Assembly (NCBI GenBank): GCA_938045315.1
Contig: CALINM010000209.1
Location: 1-16,838, forward strand
Origin: an uncultured bacterium
GTDB lineage: Bacteria; CALINM01
DNA: 16,838 nucleotides
Direction of reading: 5' to 3'
In this document: positions 7,049-16,838 of the stretch, piece after piece
How the letters are laid out: the number at the start of each line of letters is the position of its first letter
Position numbering within the stretch: position 1 is the first letter of the stretch
The notes under the pieces: model-generated
What the model was told of the DNA's origin: nothing
Seen by the model: the letters and a program-made list of their open reading frames with translations, nothing else
Databases searched by the model: none
Program-made: the position numbers and the translations under genes

Positions 7049-8020
7049 TTGTCAAAAAAATTAGCTTTTGAAAGATACTATTGGTTTCATAACCAGATAA
7101 AAGCAGGTAAATTTCCAAATTCGAAAACATTGGCAATTAAATTTGAAATTTCACAAAAACAGGCTCAAAGAGACGTAGAGTTTATAAGAGACAGGCTTAA
7201 TGCTCCTCTTATATATGATAAGAAGAGAAGAGGATACTATTATGAATCTGAAAATTATGAATTGCCACCCCTTTGGCTCAAAGAAGATGATTTAATTAGC
7301 CTAATAATATCCTATAATCTTACTAAGAGTATTCCAGATAAACACATAAAAAAATCTCTATACAACATTATTCAGTCAATTATAAATAAAAACAGCAACA
7401 AAAGAATAAACATTTCAGATTTTTTATCAAAAGTCTCTGTTAAACATATTGAGTACTACCGCATTGATGAGTCAATTTTTCAAAAAGTAATACAAAGCCT
7501 TTATTATGATCAAAATTTAAAGATTGAATATTATTCACCCCATAAAAAAGAGAAATCAGAGAGAGTAATAAAACCACTTCATCTTTTGTGTTATATGGGA
7601 AGATGGCATGTTATTGCTTACTGTAATACAAGAAAAGATTTGAGAACATTTGCTTTATCGAGAATTAAAAAGATTAAAATATCCGATATAAAAATATACA
7701 TACCTGAAGATATTCAAGATGTAAGCGATTATATAAATAAAACATTTGGATTAATAAGTAACAATAATAAAGGTACTGATGTATGTTTAGAGTTCAGTGC
7801 TGAAGTGGCAGATTGGATAAAAGAGCAGATTTGGCATGAGGCTCAGATAATTACAGAAAAAGAAGATGGTAGTGTATGTTTAATATTTCCTGTTACAGAT
7901 TTTTTGGAGTTAAAGGGAGAGATACTCAAATATGGCTCTGCAGTAAAAGTTGTCTACCCAGAAGAATTAAAAGAAGAAATAAAAAAAGAAATCGAGAAAA
8001 TGAAAAAAAATTACATATAG
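7049..8020 (+). CDS. WYL-domain transcriptional regulator
   Basis: This 323-residue protein has an N-terminal DeoR-like winged helix (about 5-65, with FEISQKQAQRDVEFIRDRL as the recognition region), a central WYL domain (about 140-212) and a C-terminal WCX domain (about 243-315). The WYL signature reads GRWHVIAYC, with WHV at 186-188 replacing W-Y-L, a common variant. It is followed by FALSRIKKI. WYL proteins next to CRISPR-Cas loci are known regulators in some bacteria: Sll7009 of Synechocystis represses a type I-D array. The start is TTG at 7049, chosen because AAGGAG at 7036-7041 sits 7 nt upstream and it gives the family-like N-terminus. It is separated from cas6 by 174 bp on the same strand. 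The ligand, possibly a nucleic acid or nucleotide, is not visible from sequence. Confidence 0.9.
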   Translation: MSKKLAFERYYWFHNQIKAGKFPNSKTLAIKFEISQKQAQRDVEFIRDRLNAPLIYDKKRRGYYYESENYELPPLWLKEDDLISLIISYNLTKSIPDKHIKKSLYNIIQSIINKNSNKRINISDFLSKVSVKHIEYYRIDESIFQKVIQSLYYDQNLKIEYYSPHKKEKSERVIKPLHLLCYMGRWHVIAYCNTRKDLRTFALSRIKKIKISDIKIYIPEDIQDVSDYINKTFGLISNNNKGTDVCLEFSAEVADWIKEQIWHEAQIITEKEDGSVCLIFPVTDFLELKGEILKYGSAVKVVYPEELKEEIKKEIEKMKKNYI

Positions 8021-8194: not shown

Positions 8195-8884
8195 ATGATG
8201 ACCCTTGAGAAAGTGGAAATAAATTTTGTTTGTGAAAAACCAATAAATTGTGGAGTAACTGCTCTTAGAGGTTTTTTCGGGAATTTATATAGAAACAGGC
8301 CAGAGTTTCATGGACATATGGGCAGGAAGTTAATTTATAAGCATCCGTTGATTCAATATAAGATTTTTGGCGGTTCGCCCCTTCTAATTGGTTTAAAAGA
8401 GGGAGCATATTTACTCAAAGCTGTTCCGAAGATTGAATACCTTGAACTTTATAATCAAAAATATAGTGTTTTAAAGCAAAATACTATAAATTCCATGGTT
8501 GAATTTGGTGTAACTGATACTATGATTTCCTATTTTTTTCTAACACCATGGGTTGGATTGAACAAAGAGAATTACCAGTATTATTTACAATTGAAGCGAA
8601 GAGACTCGGATATACATGGTTTTCTCAATAAGATTATTATTGGTAACATTATTTCTATGAGCAAGTCATTGAGATATACTGTTGACAAAAAAATATTGAT
8701 AAGATCGAGTCTTAAAGAATATAAGCAAATCAATATAAAGCGAAATGTGGCACTAATAGCTTTTGAAGGAGAATTTGAGACAAATTTTTTGATACCAGAC
8801 TTTTGGGGCATTGGCGCAAAAGTTTCCTTTGGCTATGGAACGGTTAAGCGTAAAAATGGAGGTGAAACAAAATGGAGAGAATAG
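8195..8884 (+). CDS. cas6: Cas6b-type CRISPR RNA endoribonuclease
   Basis: Cas6 cuts the array transcript inside each repeat and leaves an 8-nt 5' handle, expected here to be ATTGAAAC. The 229-residue protein resembles the Cas6b family: a ferredoxin-like N-terminus with TALRGFFGNLY, then HGHMG (H39, H41) and the PLIQYKIFGGSPLLIGLKEG stretch, and at the C-terminus the glycine-rich RNA-binding loop GIGAKVSFGYGTV at 205-217. Which His or Tyr is catalytic cannot be fixed by eye. There are two adjacent ATG codons, 8195 and 8198, with no Shine-Dalgarno sequence. A TATAAT ends at 8191, so the message may be leaderless with its start at about the second ATG. The 3' end overlaps cas8 by 13 nt. Annotation pipelines may call it hypothetical because of its divergence. 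Confidence 0.82.
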   Translation: MMTLEKVEINFVCEKPINCGVTALRGFFGNLYRNRPEFHGHMGRKLIYKHPLIQYKIFGGSPLLIGLKEGAYLLKAVPKIEYLELYNQKYSVLKQNTINSMVEFGVTDTMISYFFLTPWVGLNKENYQYYLQLKRRDSDIHGFLNKIIIGNIISMSKSLRYTVDKKILIRSSLKEYKQINIKRNVALIAFEGEFETNFLIPDFWGIGAKVSFGYGTVKRKNGGETKWRE

Positions 8885-10563
8885 AAATAACCTTTCCCAA
8901 ATTAAACCACTTTTGGCTGGATTCAGGGTTGTTAGGGCTTACTGTAATGCTCAAAGAAGTTGCAAGCGGGATAGATAAAGTAGTTAACGATGAAGGCTTG
9001 ACTTTAAGAGGAACAGAAAAGGAAATACAGGAGGCTCTTAAAAAGGCTTATGACTTGTTAATCGAGCAGTATTATGATTTATCAACCAAGAAACAAAGAG
9101 ACGATACCACTTCGTATAATTTTTACTATGATAGCAAAAAAGATGAGTTTATTGCTTTTCCAAAAAAGAAATCTGTTGGTATTGCTGAGCTTATATATAA
9201 TAAAATACCTCGCCCTGAAGGCACTTCAATCGAGTGGGATAAAAAGGAGAAAAGAGAAATTCTTATAAATGGTAATACCGTCAAAAGAAATCGTGGTATC
9301 CTTCCAACTTCACACGCACATCTTCAGAAGAGGCTGGATGAATTCTTAGATTCTCATGGTTTAGATGTAACTACCGAATATTTGCTCATTGACGGACCTT
9401 ATGTGGTGCGACCTAACGTTACTATACCTGATAAGTTTTCATCTACCACAAAAGGGCAATGTTATTTATGTGGAAAAGATAGTCCCATATTAAAAGATGC
9501 TGGACAAACAATATTTCCTTTTTTTACTGGATCAAGCGGATTACTAAATTTCAACACTATGAGTAGTAAACCTGAAAAGGTCTGTTGGAAATGTGCCTTC
9601 GTTAGCAAGTTTGTGCCAGTTAATGGGTTCTATCTTTCTCAAGGAGATAATCTCTTTGTCTTTTTACCCTACTCTGTATCTTTTGAGAAAATGCTGGATG
9701 TTTATACCCCCCTTCAGGATGCAAAATATGAAGATCCCAATCTCTTCAAGAATTTCAAGCATCCATTAGGTTTTGAAAAATATGAAGATGGATATTTTCA
9801 AAAGCCCTTTGAAGTTGCATTTGCCTTTTTATATACAATTTACAGAAAGATTTTGCTCCATCAAAGAGCAGATGAAGAAGGTATATTGAATTGGGAAGAG
9901 ATGTGTAACCTTACGATTTCAAAAGCACCACTAGAATTTGTAATTCTTCATACAGAGTCAAAGGGACAGACCTCTATGGGGAAAATGGTTTGGCCATTTA
10001 GAGATTCCGTTTATTTCTTCAGATTAATGGAGCATATTGAAAGATCTAAAATAAAGATCAAAGAGGTTATGAGACTACTTATAAATTTTTCACAGAAAAA
10101 TACCAATAAAACACTGATTAGGAACAAGGTGTGTGAACGAATACTCAAAAAGCAAACAATACTCGATTTGATAGAATATCATGTATTTAATATTGATGAA
10201 ACTTATATTAAACCACTGTTTGATTTTGTAGTAATATATGAAAAAGCTATTAAAAAGGAGGGAAATTCTATGACTAATGAGGCACAAGAAGCTGCTGTAA
10301 CACTTGGCAAAAGTATTGGAATGGCAGTAGCCAAGAATGGTAAAAAGGGCGACCTTTTTGCATTGAGAAAAGCAAGACGGAAAACTGATTTCTTGAATGA
10401 ATTGAACAGGCTCCAGTTTAAATGTGGACTTGTTGTACCACCCGAAATATATGAAGGGAAACTTACTGATTCAAATTTTATAGAATTCAAGCAGTTTTGT
10501 ATGATTGCCGCTTTAAAAAGTTTTTATGATGCTGCAAATAAAACCAAAGGGGAGGGTAAATAA
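8872..10563 (+). CDS. cas8: Cas8, Cst1-like CXXC-CXXC large subunit of Cascade
   Basis: This is the large subunit of the type I-B effector complex. It recognises the PAM and helps open target DNA. It is 563 residues long, with two zinc-binding pairs, CYLC (C197, C200) and CWKC (C238, C241), and the hydrophobic SSGLLNFNTMSSKPEKVC region between them. That is the layout of the Cst1/CXXC-CXXC family (also named Cas8a1; within the Tneap I-B group). The N-terminus is SGLLGLTVML-like, and the last third is mainly helical. GGAGGTGA at 8858-8865 sets the ATG at 8872, and the gene overlaps the cas6 end. A second strong ribosome binding site and ATG lie in frame at codon 467, so the C-terminal 97 residues are probably also made as a separate Cas11 subunit. 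The family is very divergent, and the exact Cas8 subgroup is inferred from the cysteines and neighbours. Confidence 0.88.
   Translation: MERIEITFPKLNHFWLDSGLLGLTVMLKEVASGIDKVVNDEGLTLRGTEKEIQEALKKAYDLLIEQYYDLSTKKQRDDTTSYNFYYDSKKDEFIAFPKKKSVGIAELIYNKIPRPEGTSIEWDKKEKREILINGNTVKRNRGILPTSHAHLQKRLDEFLDSHGLDVTTEYLLIDGPYVVRPNVTIPDKFSSTTKGQCYLCGKDSPILKDAGQTIFPFFTGSSGLLNFNTMSSKPEKVCWKCAFVSKFVPVNGFYLSQGDNLFVFLPYSVSFEKMLDVYTPLQDAKYEDPNLFKNFKHPLGFEKYEDGYFQKPFEVAFAFLYTIYRKILLHQRADEEGILNWEEMCNLTISKAPLEFVILHTESKGQTSMGKMVWPFRDSVYFFRLMEHIERSKIKIKEVMRLLINFSQKNTNKTLIRNKVCERILKKQTILDLIEYHVFNIDETYIKPLFDFVVIYEKAIKKEGNSMTNEAQEAAVTLGKSIGMAVAKNGKKGDLFALRKARRKTDFLNELNRLQFKCGLVVPPEIYEGKLTDSNFIEFKQFCMIAALKSFYDAANKTKGEGK
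10255..10261 (+). promoter_or_regulatory. Internal ribosome binding site within cas8
   Basis: AAGGAGG lies 8 nt upstream of an in-frame ATG at 10270. The match is as strong as that before any gene start in the window, and it lies in coding sequence that specifies K-K-E-G, where synonymous codons could have avoided it. Confidence 0.7.
10270..10563 (+). CDS. cas11: Putative Cas11 small subunit by internal translation of cas8
   Basis: Starting at the in-frame ATG (codon 467 of cas8), this gives a 97-residue product beginning MTNEAQEAAVTLGKSIG and ending KTKGEGK. It is predicted to be mainly alpha-helical and rich in basic residues (KNGKKGDLFALRKARRK). That suits a small subunit binding along the target strand in the belly of Cascade. 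Independent translation of the small subunit from the 3' end of the large-subunit gene is established for types I-B, I-C and I-D. This operon has no stand-alone small-subunit gene, so the position, size and ribosome binding site all fit. Expression itself is inferred. Confidence 0.68.
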   Translation: MTNEAQEAAVTLGKSIGMAVAKNGKKGDLFALRKARRKTDFLNELNRLQFKCGLVVPPEIYEGKLTDSNFIEFKQFCMIAALKSFYDAANKTKGEGK

Positions 10564-11448
10564 ATGAAAAACGCAAAATCATTAACCATTACTTATTTAA
10601 CACTTGTATCATTTGGTAGCCTTAATGGTTCTGACAAAGAGGCGGATAACATCTCAAGTATCAAAAAGATTACGCGTGATACAGAACAGTTTCCTTATGT
10701 TTCTGCACAAGCGATAAGGCGCGCATTAAGAGACCAGCTTGCAGTTATGGGAAGAACACTCTCTGAAGTAGTGGCAGCAACAATTAAAAAGGGGGCCGCC
10801 ACCACAGAGCAAGATCCAGTAAAATATATAGATGATGATCTGTTTGGGTATATGGGGACCGAAGAAGCAAAAGAAGGTAATAAAGGAACTTCAAAAAAAA
10901 GAACTTCTCCTGTTAGGGTATCGCCTCTTGTATCCCTTCACAAATATGAAGGAGATTTAGATTTTGCAACAAACTTTATGGGAGTTGAAGCAGGTGGAGA
11001 CCCAAACATTTTTGAAACCGAAATTCATTCTGGTCTATATAGAGGTACAATACTTATAGAATTAGATAGAGTTGGATGTGGAGAAGGATTTACAGAGGAA
11101 TTATCAAATAGTGAAAAGTTTGAAAGGGTGAAAGATTTACTAATAGCTTTTAAAAATCTTTGGACATCAGGTAGACAAACAAGATTTCTCGCTGATATCT
11201 CACCGAAATTTATTGCTGCTGCAATGCTTACAACAAAAAATCCAATATTCCTTGAATCAATAGTTCCTAAAAATGGCGGGGTTAATGTTGAATTGATTAA
11301 TGAGACAATCGAAGACTATGAAAAAGAAATTGTGGAAAAAGTGTTTGGCGCAAGAAAGGGATTATTCTCTAATTTACCAGAAGGAACTGTTTCAATTGGA
11401 GAGGCTTTTGACAAAATGATGGAATGGATTGACGAATATTATAAGTAG
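10564..11448 (+). CDS. cas7: Cas7 (Cst2/DevR-like) Cascade backbone protein
   Basis: Cas7 polymerises along the crRNA spacer and forms the backbone of Cascade. The 294-residue protein has the RRM-like N-terminal strand (LTITYLTLVSFGSLNG), the characteristic PYVSAQAIRRALRDQL helix at 44-59, DDLFGYMG at 91-98, the RTSPVRVSPLVSL segment at 113-125 and the C-terminal FLADISPKFIAAAML block. These are hallmarks of the Cas7 branch that includes Cst2 and DevR. It begins directly after the cas8 stop (TAA then ATG, 0 bp gap) with AAGGGGAGG in the end of cas8 as ribosome binding site. Spacing to cas5 is 11 bp. Confidence 0.94.
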   Translation: MKNAKSLTITYLTLVSFGSLNGSDKEADNISSIKKITRDTEQFPYVSAQAIRRALRDQLAVMGRTLSEVVAATIKKGAATTEQDPVKYIDDDLFGYMGTEEAKEGNKGTSKKRTSPVRVSPLVSLHKYEGDLDFATNFMGVEAGGDPNIFETEIHSGLYRGTILIELDRVGCGEGFTEELSNSEKFERVKDLLIAFKNLWTSGRQTRFLADISPKFIAAAMLTTKNPIFLESIVPKNGGVNVELINETIEDYEKEIVEKVFGARKGLFSNLPEGTVSIGEAFDKMMEWIDEYYK

Positions 11449-11459
11449 AGGAGGGTTTT

Positions 11460-12167
11460 GTGTTTGCTTTTATAGTTAAAGGCTTTGCTCAAACGGCATC
11501 TTTTAGGATTCCTGAAAGCCATACATTTCAGCCAACCCTGCCACTGCCTCCAGTTACAACCCTAACAGGATTGATGGGGGCAGCATTGGGGCTTAATTTT
11601 AAAGAAGCTATGATATTTAGAAAACAGAAAGAAATCCTTTTTGGTGTTATTGGTTCACATCAAGGAGAGATGAAAGACCTATGGAAATACAATAAGATAA
11701 AATACAATGAGTCCCTAAAAGATGTCCTTATACGAGAGTATCTAACCCATTTCTCACTGACTATTGCTATAGCTTCAAAGGAACAAATGGTTTTGTCAGA
11801 AGTAAGAGACTGTTTTTGCAATCCAAAATACGCTTTAACCCTTGGCAATAGTGATGATCTTTTTAAGATTATACATATAAGTTCCATTGTTGAGGCAGAA
11901 AGAGTTGAATGCTCAAGCTTTGAAAATACAGTGCTTGCAGGGGACCATACATTAGATTATGAGTCTGCTATTGATTTAAAAAATACTCCTGTTACTTACA
12001 GGATAAGGGCTCCACAGGTTTTTCTCCTACCGACAGATTTTCATTTTAAAGGTGAGGAAAGAAGGGTAAGTAAAAGGGAGCAGTTCACCTTTGTGGGTTC
12101 ACCCATAAAATTGAAAACCCCCCTGTGGGCTTATAAAATTCAAGACCTCGTATTCGTTTTATTATGA
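11460..12167 (+). CDS. cas5: Cas5 subunit of type I-B Cascade
   Basis: Cas5 caps the 5' handle of the crRNA and contacts Cas8. The 235-residue protein has the family N-terminus: FIVKGFAQTASFRIPESHTFQPTLPL..., then PPVTTLTGLMGAALG at about 30-44, matching the Cas5 signature of Phe-Arg, the PLPP turn and the T-x-x-G-x-x-G-A helix. The start is GTG at 11460, selected by GAGGAGG at 11448-11454. The neighbours and N-terminus suggest the Cas5t/Cas5h branch. The stop overlaps the cas3 start as ATGA. Confidence 0.93.
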   Translation: MFAFIVKGFAQTASFRIPESHTFQPTLPLPPVTTLTGLMGAALGLNFKEAMIFRKQKEILFGVIGSHQGEMKDLWKYNKIKYNESLKDVLIREYLTHFSLTIAIASKEQMVLSEVRDCFCNPKYALTLGNSDDLFKIIHISSIVEAERVECSSFENTVLAGDHTLDYESAIDLKNTPVTYRIRAPQVFLLPTDFHFKGEERRVSKREQFTFVGSPIKLKTPLWAYKIQDLVFVLL

Positions 12168-14416
12168 CCTTATACGCGAAACCAGATCAGACTTATAAAG
12201 AACATCTTGAGGCAGTTTATAATGCCTGGAAAGAGACTATAAATGCCAAGAGACCTTTAATTGAGAGGGTAGCAAACAAATATAATTTCTCCGTTGAAAG
12301 ATTTCTCAAAGGTTCTCTTTTAACTGTTGCCTTTCATGACATAGGAAAGATGACTGCACCCTTTCAAGAAATGATGCAGGCTATAATTCACAACAAACCT
12401 TTCAACAAAAGCAAAAACTATCGTCATGAGCTAGTATCATTTATATTCACAGTAAAATATTGGAAGGTTATAAACAAAGATGAGTATCTTTCTACTATCC
12501 CCCTAGAAGCACTTGCTGTTGTCGGTCATCACAAAAGTCTTGATTCTGACCTAACATCATTTAGCAGAGAAAGTGCTAGTGATGTGCCATCTATACTTCC
12601 CGATGGGATTAATGAAGCTCTGGCAATCGCTGTAGATTTATTCAAAAGAGAAGGATTTATACTACCTTCAATAGTACAATGCAATAAACACGAAGACCCT
12701 TTTAAATCGTTGTCAAATTTGATAGTAAGCGGTATACTAAGCAAAGGGATTGAAAAAGATGGTGCCGAAAAATGTAGAACAATTTATTTTCTTTTGAAGG
12801 GAATTCTCCATTATGCCGATTGGTATGGCTCAGGTAAAAGCAGCGTTAAGTACAGTATTAACAAAGACATATCATTGGTTATCAATGAACTTAAGCAACG
12901 ATGCTATAGAAAAGGCATAAAATTTAATGGGTTAAGACCATTCCAGGAAAAATGTATCGGACACTTAGGTCATTTAATTGCAATAGCTCCGACAGGTAGT
13001 GGAAAGACTGAGGCAGCTATCTTATGGGCATTGAAAAATGCAGAAGATATGAAAAATGCAAAAATACTTTATTTGTTGCCCACCATGGTAACGGCAAATA
13101 ATACTTATAAAAGATTATGTGATTTTTTTGGGAAAGAAAATGTAGGATTAACTCATTCAACTGCAAATTTGCTTCTACAAAATGATTCTTCATGGGAAGC
13201 AGAGGAAGATAAATGGGAAAATAGACACGATGTCCTTTTTAATCAAACTTTTATGAAACCTGTAACAGTGGGTACTGTTGATCAACTATTGACAACTGGA
13301 TTTAATGCAGGAAATTGGACTTTAAAAGAGGCAAATGCTTCTAATTCAGTTATTATAATTGATGAAATACACGCATATGATGGCTGGACAATGGGACTTA
13401 TTATTTCGTCAATTAGGCATTTTTCTTCGCTTGGTGCAAGATTTATGTTAATGAGTGCAACTTTGCCTCAAACACTACAGCAATTGTTTTATAATGAGTT
13501 ACAAAACGCTGCTATAGTCAAAGAAGACACTCTTTTAAATGCCAAAAGAAGTAAATACTTTGTAGTAGACAATTTTTTAGATAGTTCTTTGAGAGATATT
13601 GAGAAGGCAGTATTAGATGGTAAAAGGGTGTTAGTAGTTGTGAACACTGTTAGTTTATGCCAGGAATTAGCTCAAAAATTATCACACCTTAATGCGCTAT
13701 GCTATCATTCTCAATTTATATTAAAAGATCGTAAAGAAATTGAAAAAAAAATTACAAATGCTCAACTCGTCATTGCTACCCAGGTAATAGAAGTTTCACT
13801 CGATATTGATTTTGACTGGCTCTTTACGGAATGTGCACCCCCTGATGCCATTGCCCAAAGAGCGGGAAGAATAAATAGATATAGGGATTCACAAAGAGAT
13901 AGCAGGGTATATATCTTTAGGGCCACAGAAAAGGGAGCGAAGATTTACAATCAAATAAATTTGCCGAATTTTCTTGAACGATCTTTTGAGGAATTTTCTA
14001 AAGAGATTACTAATAAAGAAAAATTGAGTGAAAATGATCTTATCAATATTGTGGAGTTAGTTTACAAAGACTATCGAATAGAAGATTCCGAAGCTTTTAA
14101 AGAAGCTAAATTACAATACAATTTGTCTCAATCCAGAAGAAACATGATTTTAGATAGTCGTTTAGGAGAAGAACAGCAAGAAGTAACACGTTTGGTAAAA
14201 TATGAGACAGTTTCTGTAATACCAGTATGTTTTATGAAGGAAGTTTTAAATTTGAAACCCTCAGAGAGACATTTGTATGAAGTAAAAATTCCATTATGGT
14301 ATGCACTTAAGCATAAAGAAGAAAAAAATGGAATTACTTTTTGCGACATTGATTATGATTCTAATATCGGTGCAACATTCTCAAAAGACAATGAAGCTGT
14401 AAATATTATATTTTAG
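12164..14416 (+). CDS. cas3: Cas3 nuclease-helicase (HD plus DExH fusion)
   Basis: Cas3 is recruited to Cascade-bound DNA, where it nicks, unwinds and degrades the displaced strand. The 750-residue protein starts with an HD nuclease domain (about 1-235) that retains H14, FHDIGK (H58-D59), RHE (H88) and the GHHKS pair (H122-H123). The superfamily 2 helicase follows: Walker A APTGSGKT at 275-282, DEIH at 400-403, the MSATLP motif, QVIEVSLDIDFDWLFTE, and QRAGRINRY. All catalytic motifs are intact, so both activities are expected in one polypeptide. Translation is coupled to cas5 by a 4-nt overlap. A 115-bp gap follows before cas1, the largest inside the cas cluster. Confidence 0.97.
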   Translation: MTLYAKPDQTYKEHLEAVYNAWKETINAKRPLIERVANKYNFSVERFLKGSLLTVAFHDIGKMTAPFQEMMQAIIHNKPFNKSKNYRHELVSFIFTVKYWKVINKDEYLSTIPLEALAVVGHHKSLDSDLTSFSRESASDVPSILPDGINEALAIAVDLFKREGFILPSIVQCNKHEDPFKSLSNLIVSGILSKGIEKDGAEKCRTIYFLLKGILHYADWYGSGKSSVKYSINKDISLVINELKQRCYRKGIKFNGLRPFQEKCIGHLGHLIAIAPTGSGKTEAAILWALKNAEDMKNAKILYLLPTMVTANNTYKRLCDFFGKENVGLTHSTANLLLQNDSSWEAEEDKWENRHDVLFNQTFMKPVTVGTVDQLLTTGFNAGNWTLKEANASNSVIIIDEIHAYDGWTMGLIISSIRHFSSLGARFMLMSATLPQTLQQLFYNELQNAAIVKEDTLLNAKRSKYFVVDNFLDSSLRDIEKAVLDGKRVLVVVNTVSLCQELAQKLSHLNALCYHSQFILKDRKEIEKKITNAQLVIATQVIEVSLDIDFDWLFTECAPPDAIAQRAGRINRYRDSQRDSRVYIFRATEKGAKIYNQINLPNFLERSFEEFSKEITNKEKLSENDLINIVELVYKDYRIEDSEAFKEAKLQYNLSQSRRNMILDSRLGEEQQEVTRLVKYETVSVIPVCFMKEVLNLKPSERHLYEVKIPLWYALKHKEEKNGITFCDIDYDSNIGATFSKDNEAVNIIF

Positions 14417-14531: not shown

Positions 14532-14544
<13 letters not shown>
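14512..14544 (+). other. Possible 10-codon leader ORF overlapping cas1 start
   Basis: ATG at 14512 opens MKMSGKRCSL and then TAA, with GAGG at 14501-14504 at suitable distance. It overlaps the cas1 ATG at 14532, which has only a weak AGTGGT ahead of it. Ribosomes finishing this peptide could restart at cas1. Coding is unproven. Confidence 0.25.
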
Positions 14545-15807
<1,263 letters not shown>

Positions 15808-15809
15808 GT

Positions 15810-16439
15810 ATGGATTTAGAAGAAATAATAATAAAAGAACAATTAGATGATGAAACCACTCCTATGATAACCCCCTCAGATGTTATAGAATACGTTTATT
15901 GTCCAAGATTTACATACTTTTTGAACTGTCTCGATATCTCGCAAAATGAACATCTTAGATATAAAGTAATTAAAGGTAGAGAGTTACATGAGAAAAGAGA
16001 AAAAACAAATATTGAATATAATAGAAAGAAGTTGGGATGCATAAAAAAAGAAGTTTCCGTTTATTTGGCATCAACAAAATATAGAGTTAGAGGTGTGGTA
16101 GATGAAGTATTATATTTGAGTGATGGAACTTTAGCACCTTTAGATTATAAATATACAGAATATACAGATTTTACTTTTAAAACACATAAGGTACAGTCCA
16201 CCTTATATGCAATGCTTATAAAAGAAAATTATGGTTCTGAAGTAAAAAAAGGCTTCATATGCTATACAAAGAGCAGAAATATTATAAAGGAAATTATATT
16301 TAAAGAAACTGACTTCAAAAATGTTATACGAATTGTGGAAGAAATTTTTAAAATAATAACAAATGGCTATTTTCCTAAGAGGACTAACTTTGATATTAGA
16401 TGTGTTGATTGTTGTTACAGGAATATTTGTCCAAAATAA
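15810..16439 (+). CDS. cas4: Cas4 nuclease
   Basis: Cas4 is a RecB-like iron-sulfur nuclease that trims prespacers and selects them by PAM. The 209-residue protein has the first cluster cysteine in VYCPR (C31), H60 in RELHEKRE, D98 in RGVVDEV, D112 and K114 in PLDYKYT, Q129 and Y133 in QSTLYAML, and three further cluster ligands near the end (C198, C201 and C207 in CVDCCYRNICPK). C202 is an additional neighbouring cysteine. It is complete. It begins 2 bp after the cas2 stop with little ribosome binding site, so translation is probably coupled. It is placed after cas2, next to the leader, rather than before cas1 as is usual in I-B loci. The start at 15810 adds about 20 acidic residues before the conserved TPSDVIEYVYC. 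A later start cannot be excluded. Confidence 0.94.
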   Translation: MDLEEIIIKEQLDDETTPMITPSDVIEYVYCPRFTYFLNCLDISQNEHLRYKVIKGRELHEKREKTNIEYNRKKLGCIKKEVSVYLASTKYRVRGVVDEVLYLSDGTLAPLDYKYTEYTDFTFKTHKVQSTLYAMLIKENYGSEVKKGFICYTKSRNIIKEIIFKETDFKNVIRIVEEIFKIITNGYFPKRTNFDIRCVDCCYRNICPK

Positions 16440-16632: not shown

Positions 16633-16838
16633 GTTTTAGACCCACTTCCATAAAAACAAGGATTGAAACACCCCTAAATAAATCAACTACACATGCTAAT
16701 ACAACGTTTTAGACCCACTTCCATAAAAACAAGGATTGAAACTCAAGTAGAGGGTGCTCAGTTAGCTGAAAATCAATGTTTTAGACCCACTTCCATAAAA
16801 ACAAGGATTGAAACAAACAAATGAACGTACAAGTTGGA
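16633..16838 (+). CRISPR. Type I-B CRISPR array, left end, continues past window
   Basis: Three identical 37-bp repeats lie at 16633-16669, 16706-16742 and 16778-16814. They begin GTTTTAGACCC and end GGATTGAAAC. The complete spacers are 36 bp (16670-16705) and 35 bp (16743-16777). A third begins at 16815 and is cut by the window edge. The 3' end ATTGAAAC is the usual 8-nt handle of I-A/I-B type repeats. The repeat has little internal hairpin, but its ends GTTTTAG and TTGAAAC can pair over 7 bp with two G-U pairs. The leader is on the left, so these are the newest spacers and the transcript runs rightwards, same as the cas genes. No spacer matches elsewhere in the window that I can see. Confidence 0.98.

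Follow-up and report, generated by a model that had tools for sequence, protein, structure and literature searches.

Internally translated small subunits of type I-B systems

Small subunits made by internal translation of the large-subunit gene have been called widespread in types I-B, I-C and I-D since 2020 (PMC7684278, PMC10212523). In the type I-B system of Synechocystis sp. PCC 6714 (8H67), Cas11b is made from an internal start of cas8b, and three copies of it form the belly of the complex (PMC11096372). In Haloferax volcanii, tagging, mass spectrometry and mutation of the start codon showed that Cas11b comes from an internal ATG of cas8b (PMC11899642). In Thermotoga maritima type I-B1, Cas8b1 needs the internally encoded Cas11 to join Cascade, and in E. 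coli no Cas11 arose from the internal start in its gene (PMC13199841).

Here we describe a candidate of the same kind in the window, by which we mean the whole 16,838-nt stretch of DNA that was analysed. Like that of Synechocystis, its cas8b has an in-frame start close to the 3′ end, from which a Cas11b identical to the C-terminal helical domain of Cas8b would be made. However, the Synechocystis protein belongs to the Myxan/Cmx8 branch of Cas8b, and a search of solved chains found no sequence similarity to the window Cas8 family. As in T. maritima, Cas11 would be encoded within the 3′ part of the gene, but T. maritima Cas11 is larger (15.1 kDa versus 10.8 kDa) and its internal site, silent in E. 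coli, is described as suboptimal, whereas the window site is strong. H. volcanii shares the internal ATG in cas8b, yet it is archaeal and its GGATG motif is weak. Cas11c, from the type I-C system of Desulfovibrio vulgaris (PMC7684278), and Cas11d, inside type I-D cas10d (PMC10212523), are alike in drawing two subunits from one gene, but they belong to other subtypes with other large subunits. The statement in the initial annotation that internal Cas11 translation is known in types I-B, I-C and I-D thus agrees with the literature (PMC11096372, PMC11899642, PMC13199841, PMC7684278, PMC10212523). The mechanism itself is already published for these subtypes; what the window adds is a divergent Cas8b that the NCBIfam models leave unnamed.

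A complete type I-B locus with a divergent Cas8b

A complete type I-B locus lies in the window, with a Cst2/DevR-type cas7, cas5, cas3, cas6, cas1-cas2-cas4 and an array, in the order WYL-cas6-cas8-cas7-cas5-cas3-cas1-cas2-cas4-CRISPR array. Its features are as follows.

7049..8020, plus strand: WYL-domain regulator at the head of the locus (PADLOC WYL, E 9.4e-36)
8195..8884, plus strand: cas6 (Pfam Cas6b_N and Cas6b_C; PADLOC Cas6)
8872..10563, plus strand: cas8, the Cas8b large subunit of 563 aa and host of the putative cas11 (PADLOC PDLC01582, E 3.1e-38; PDLC01414, E 2e-15)
10255..10261, plus strand: putative internal Shine-Dalgarno motif AAGGAGG of cas11 (read directly; -12.1 kcal/mol; kept in homologues)
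10270..10563, plus strand: putative cas11, Cas11b small subunit of 97 aa (in-frame ATG; predicted fold; structural matches)
10564..11448, plus strand: cas7, Cst2/DevR (TIGR02585, 230.7 bits, cut-off 72.75)
11460..12167, plus strand: cas5, GTG start (TIGR02593 above cut-off; TIGR01895 below cut-off)
12164..14416, plus strand: cas3, HD and helicase (TIGR01587 and TIGR01596 above cut-off)
14532..15515, plus strand: cas1 (TIGR00287, 290.8 bits)
15505..15807, plus strand: cas2 (PADLOC Cas2b, E 1.9e-37)
15810..16439, plus strand: cas4 (PADLOC Cas4b, E 1.1e-77)
16633..16838, plus strand: CRISPR array with three 37-nt repeats GTTTTAGACCCACTTCCATAAAAACAAGGATTGAAAC, followed by the contig end (repeat search and sequence)

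None of the gaps between the genes of the operon contains a separate small-subunit gene, and inspection of gaps and gene order bore out the initial annotation on this point. In the locus of a Syntrophaceae relative (L005, 6922-7242), the WYL regulator before cas6 is only a 106-aa C-terminal piece and may be truncated.

The window Cas8 is Cas8b in the broad sense and reaches the cut-off of no curated Cst1/Cas8b1 family model. Its clear profile matches are those to PADLOC Cas8b (best E 3.1e-38), and cas7 follows it directly at 10564; none of the Cas8 or Cst1 models of NCBIfam matches it. Its assignment to the Cst1/CXXC-CXXC branch held in part: the CXXC pairs are there (C197/C200 and C238/C241), but the Cst1 models go unmatched and Pfam Cas_CXXC_CXXC reaches 12.8 bits, below its cut-off of 21. 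That this branch is less studied no longer holds, since a 2026 study reconstituted the Cas11 that T. maritima cas8b1 encodes within it (PMC13199841). Profile comparison of the Cas11 regions of the window family with those of Cst1-type genes found no similarity, so the relation between the two groups rests on position and role. Profile searches of the solved chains with our Cas11 and Cas8 alignments returned nothing relevant. Because an NCBIfam match is absent and the Cas11 region is unlike that of Cst1-type genes, the label Cst1 is a loose one, while the central claim of an internal Cas11 stands.

A strong internal start site in cas8

Direct reading of the sequence places AAGGAGG at 10255-10261, an 8-nt spacer at 10262-10269 and ATG at 10270-10272, all within cas8 (...att aaa AAG GAG Gga aat tct ATG act aat...). 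The ATG shares the frame and stop of cas8 and leaves 97 residues to the end. The strength of each Shine-Dalgarno site was taken as its duplex energy with the consensus anti-Shine-Dalgarno sequence ACCUCCUUA, which may differ from the 16S rRNA end of the host itself; on this scale the internal AAGGAGG scores -12.1 kcal/mol. The sites before the annotated genes score -10.6 (cas8), -11.7 (cas7), -12.5 (cas5), -6.5 (cas2), -4.0 (cas1) and 0 (cas6 and cas3) kcal/mol. AAGGAGG with ATG 10270 is the top-scoring internal start anywhere within cas8 and stands level with the sites of cas7 and cas5. The initial annotation had placed the site here and rated it equal to those of the annotated cas genes, and both points hold.

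Taken alone, the window gene puts this site only moderately beyond chance. Among synonymous-codon shuffles of cas8, 11% reach equal strength at the same place and 11% do so somewhere in the gene. The motif could then be a chance purine-rich stretch encoding Lys-Lys-Glu-Gly, with the C-terminal domain working only within Cas8. The site is slightly more accessible in the RNA than the gene average (0.58 versus 0.46), with 16% of places more open; since this barely exceeds the average, we make no claim from accessibility. Given how soft the evidence from the window gene is, with these shuffles and a Lys-Lys-Glu-Gly that favours the motif, we examined homologues for conservation.

Conservation of the internal start among cas8 homologues

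We gathered 30 cas8 genes blind to the site: genes adjoining a cas7 detected by the TIGR02585 profile in 386 genomes, genes that a Cas8b profile detected among 395 genomes from a single phylum, and genes from plasmid-collection records. A scan of genome contigs yielded two relatives only, and for this reason whole genomes were searched for the survey, by way of cas7 or with a Cas8b profile. The window Cas8 itself found no match in the plasmid collection. The window Cas7 found nine records there, four of which gave a usable cas8 (Runella, Lactobacillus, Listeria and Acetoanaerobium); that of a Lysinibacillus plasmid is fragmented. Among the viral contigs searched there were no relatives.

In 28 of the 30 genes, the top-scoring internal start lies 80-150 codons upstream of the stop. 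Uniform placement would put 16.5% of best starts in this zone (binomial 4e-20) and codon shuffling 49% (binomial 2e-7), both probabilities being computed on genes that are partly related. The GGAGG-like cores fall in each of the three codon phases (11, 11 and 4 of 26), and the start codon, which may be ATG, GTG or TTG, follows 4-10 nt downstream of the motif in every counted case. A motif in three phases followed by any of three start codons points to the RNA, rather than the peptide, as the object of selection. As a control, we scored the adjacent cas7 genes: no internal site there reaches -10 kcal/mol, and the best sites average -5.2 kcal/mol, at no fixed position. Set against the shuffles of the window gene, the kept position, the three phases, the varied start codons and the negative control make a chance purine-rich stretch very improbable.

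The site can be followed most closely in three close relatives from other lineages, whose Cas8 proteins are 53 to 74% identical and carry GGAGG 5-8 nt before the aligned ATG. The linker around the site has gained and lost codons among them, and the site is kept nonetheless. It reads AGAGAGGAGGGAAAACCTATG in the Syntrophaceae UBA4767 relative, ATAAAGGAGGGCAAAATG in the Desantisbacteria relative and GGAAGGAGGTAATGGAATG in L013, from a genome that shares its phylum with UBA4767.

There are two exceptions to the 80-150 codon zone. In L026 the best site, judged by eye, is at seemingly the same boundary before a longer tail of 201 codons. In Runella (Bacteroidota), an ATG stands at the aligned place and the Shine-Dalgarno motif is absent; since an evident motif is found at none of eight Runella cas gene starts, this cas8 likely starts internally in the manner of Bacteroidota. 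In a few cas8 genes even the best sites are weak (-5.6 kcal/mol in L036 and -5.9 kcal/mol in L047). The Cas8 of the Runella rosea plasmid NZ_CP030854.1 (L046, 4226-5992) is annotated as a hypothetical protein.

A conserved motif could also be a ribosome pause site that aids the folding of Cas8, rather than a start, and the motif does sit at a predicted domain boundary. Yet a start codon follows it at 4-10 nt whatever residue is encoded, Runella retains the ATG without the motif, and known I-B systems use an internal start (PMC11899642). We regard pausing as still less probable than a chance stretch, and an internal start as the preferred reading. The expectation that homologues would keep the start at the aligned place was borne out by the 28 of 30 genes, and these sequence comparisons suggest that the internal start is near-universal across divergent type I-B cas8 families, some of them outside the curated NCBI models.

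Predicted fold of the 97-residue product

The product had been described as 97 residues long, basic and rich in helices, which agrees with what we found. It would have a mass of 10.8 kDa and a pI of 9.48, with 17 Lys and Arg versus 11 Asp and Glu. AlphaFold2, given three sequences, predicted a four-helix bundle (helices 3-23, 27-33, 38-51 and 67-94); the best of five models, with pLDDT 91.5 and pTM 0.83, was the sole confident one. Full-length Cas8 was modelled poorly (mean pLDDT 41), and residues 466-558 are almost its sole well-predicted part; the internal start at residue 467 coincides with this region.

Foldseek with the 97-residue model gave no significant match (best E 0.67), although CRISPR complexes recur among the low-ranking ones. 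With VIA-align, the top ten of 178 chains are all CRISPR complex chains or Cse2/CasB. The type I-A Cascade entries 9cro, 9crq and 9crp lead (Z 9.7-9.8, 2.0 Å over 91-93 residues), and the ten also include 7tr6 (type I-A Cascade), chains of type I-E-like Cascade or surveillance complexes (5u07, 5cd4, 4tvx and 4u7u) and free CasB/Cse2 (3wa8 and 2zca). The rows give entry titles, and from their size and number the matched type I-A chains would be Cas11a. Further down the list come a Csm complex and the C-terminal part of Cas8 from a type I-B CAST (8fcj, residues 395-498, Z 4.8). The entry 8H67 is missing among the rows, and a missing row is uninformative. Helical bundles easily score such Z values, and our reading draws on which entries head the list rather than only on how high they score. 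The model superposes on free CasB/Cse2 and on chains of CRISPR complexes, in line with what had been foreseen, and the product is predicted to have a helical fold like that of the small subunits Cas11 and Cse2.

Probable synthesis of two proteins from one gene

The window Cascade could instead be served by a separate cas11 gene elsewhere. We searched the genome assembly, 92% complete in 244 contigs, for a stand-alone cas11 as Cse2, as Csa5 and with the window Cas11 sequence itself, and found neither Cse2 nor a second copy of the window Cas11. There was one strong match, to Csa5 (105.5 bits, contig C73), and together with the incompleteness of the assembly it lends this explanation some weight. 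However, this Csa5 forms the C-terminal end of a type I-A cas8a frame that has its own cas7 and cas5 behind it, and hence belongs to another Cascade. It was the sole other Cas11 found. We give a separate gene about as little credence as the pausing described above.

We therefore return to two starts within one gene. From the sequence, the strength of the site, its conservation, the predicted fold and the search for a separate cas11, we infer that the window cas8 very probably yields Cas8 and, from a second start, Cas11b. Ribosomes starting at 8872 would make full-length Cas8 with a small-subunit-like C-terminal domain, and ribosomes binding AAGGAGG at 10255-10261 would start at ATG 10270 and make Cas11b, the C-terminal domain on its own. 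On the model of the solved type I-B Cascade, from which both copy number and place are taken, each complex would hold one full-length Cas8 and several free Cas11b subunits, and the latter would line the belly beside the C-terminal domain of Cas8 and hold the displaced non-target strand in the R-loop. Expression of this Cascade in a foreign host from its annotated genes could miss a subunit, as with T. maritima, and the survey gives a simple rule for annotating cas11.

A Cas8a-Csa5 fusion in type I-A

The Csa5 found on contig C73 lies in a locus (L053, 3017-1596, minus strand) in which Cas8a and Csa5 are fused in one frame of 473 codons with an internal ATG at 1979. The first 326 residues match the Cas8a profile end to end and the C-terminal 127 are Csa5. 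At the boundary, which reads TTTTAAAGGAGGTGGCTATG, AAAGGAGGTG stands 3 nt upstream of the in-frame ATG, exactly where Csa5 begins. Cas7a-like and Cas5-like genes follow downstream on this contig of about 3 kb. A small MntA-like nucleotidyltransferase frame (1666-1316, minus strand) overlaps the end of the fusion and precedes cas7.

Among the 386 genomes, one other (G016, of a different phylum) carries a Cas8a-Csa5 fusion, with the boundary TTTTAAAGGAGGTTGCTATG; in two more genomes, the small subunit stands as a frame of its own. In the G016 locus (L058, 38-11701, contig C76), a III-F-like module (HD protein, Cas10, Cas5, Cas11 and Cas7) precedes the fusion, and Cas7a, Cas5, Cas6, Cas1 and a 16-repeat CRISPR array follow it; cas7 comes directly after the fusion, unlike in L053. 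The two fusions are 76% identical in the Csa5 part and 37% in the Cas8a part.

Type I-A has been described with a distinct cas11 gene (PMC13199841), and a Cas8a-Csa5 fusion with an internal start was unreported in the largely open-access literature that we searched. PADLOC has separate profiles for Cas8a and Csa5, whose source may have been either separate genes or the divided halves of a fused one. The C73 Csa5 is likely an internally translated Cas11a, and the two loci, read from their sequences, make it probable that internal translation of Cas11 extends beyond types I-B, I-C and I-D to a Cas8a-Csa5 fusion of type I-A. If confirmed, the fused case would extend the principle to a separate-gene subtype and could be an intermediate in the fusion of large and small subunits; a gene fusion that retained the old start would explain the origin of internal cas11 genes.

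In another genome (G762; L056, 1824-3188), a Cas7-like gene beside a free Cas11 frame ends in a long tail. Within this tail, a very strong site of -13.0 kcal/mol precedes an in-frame ATG that lies 104 codons before the end, and the tail is possibly another internally started protein.
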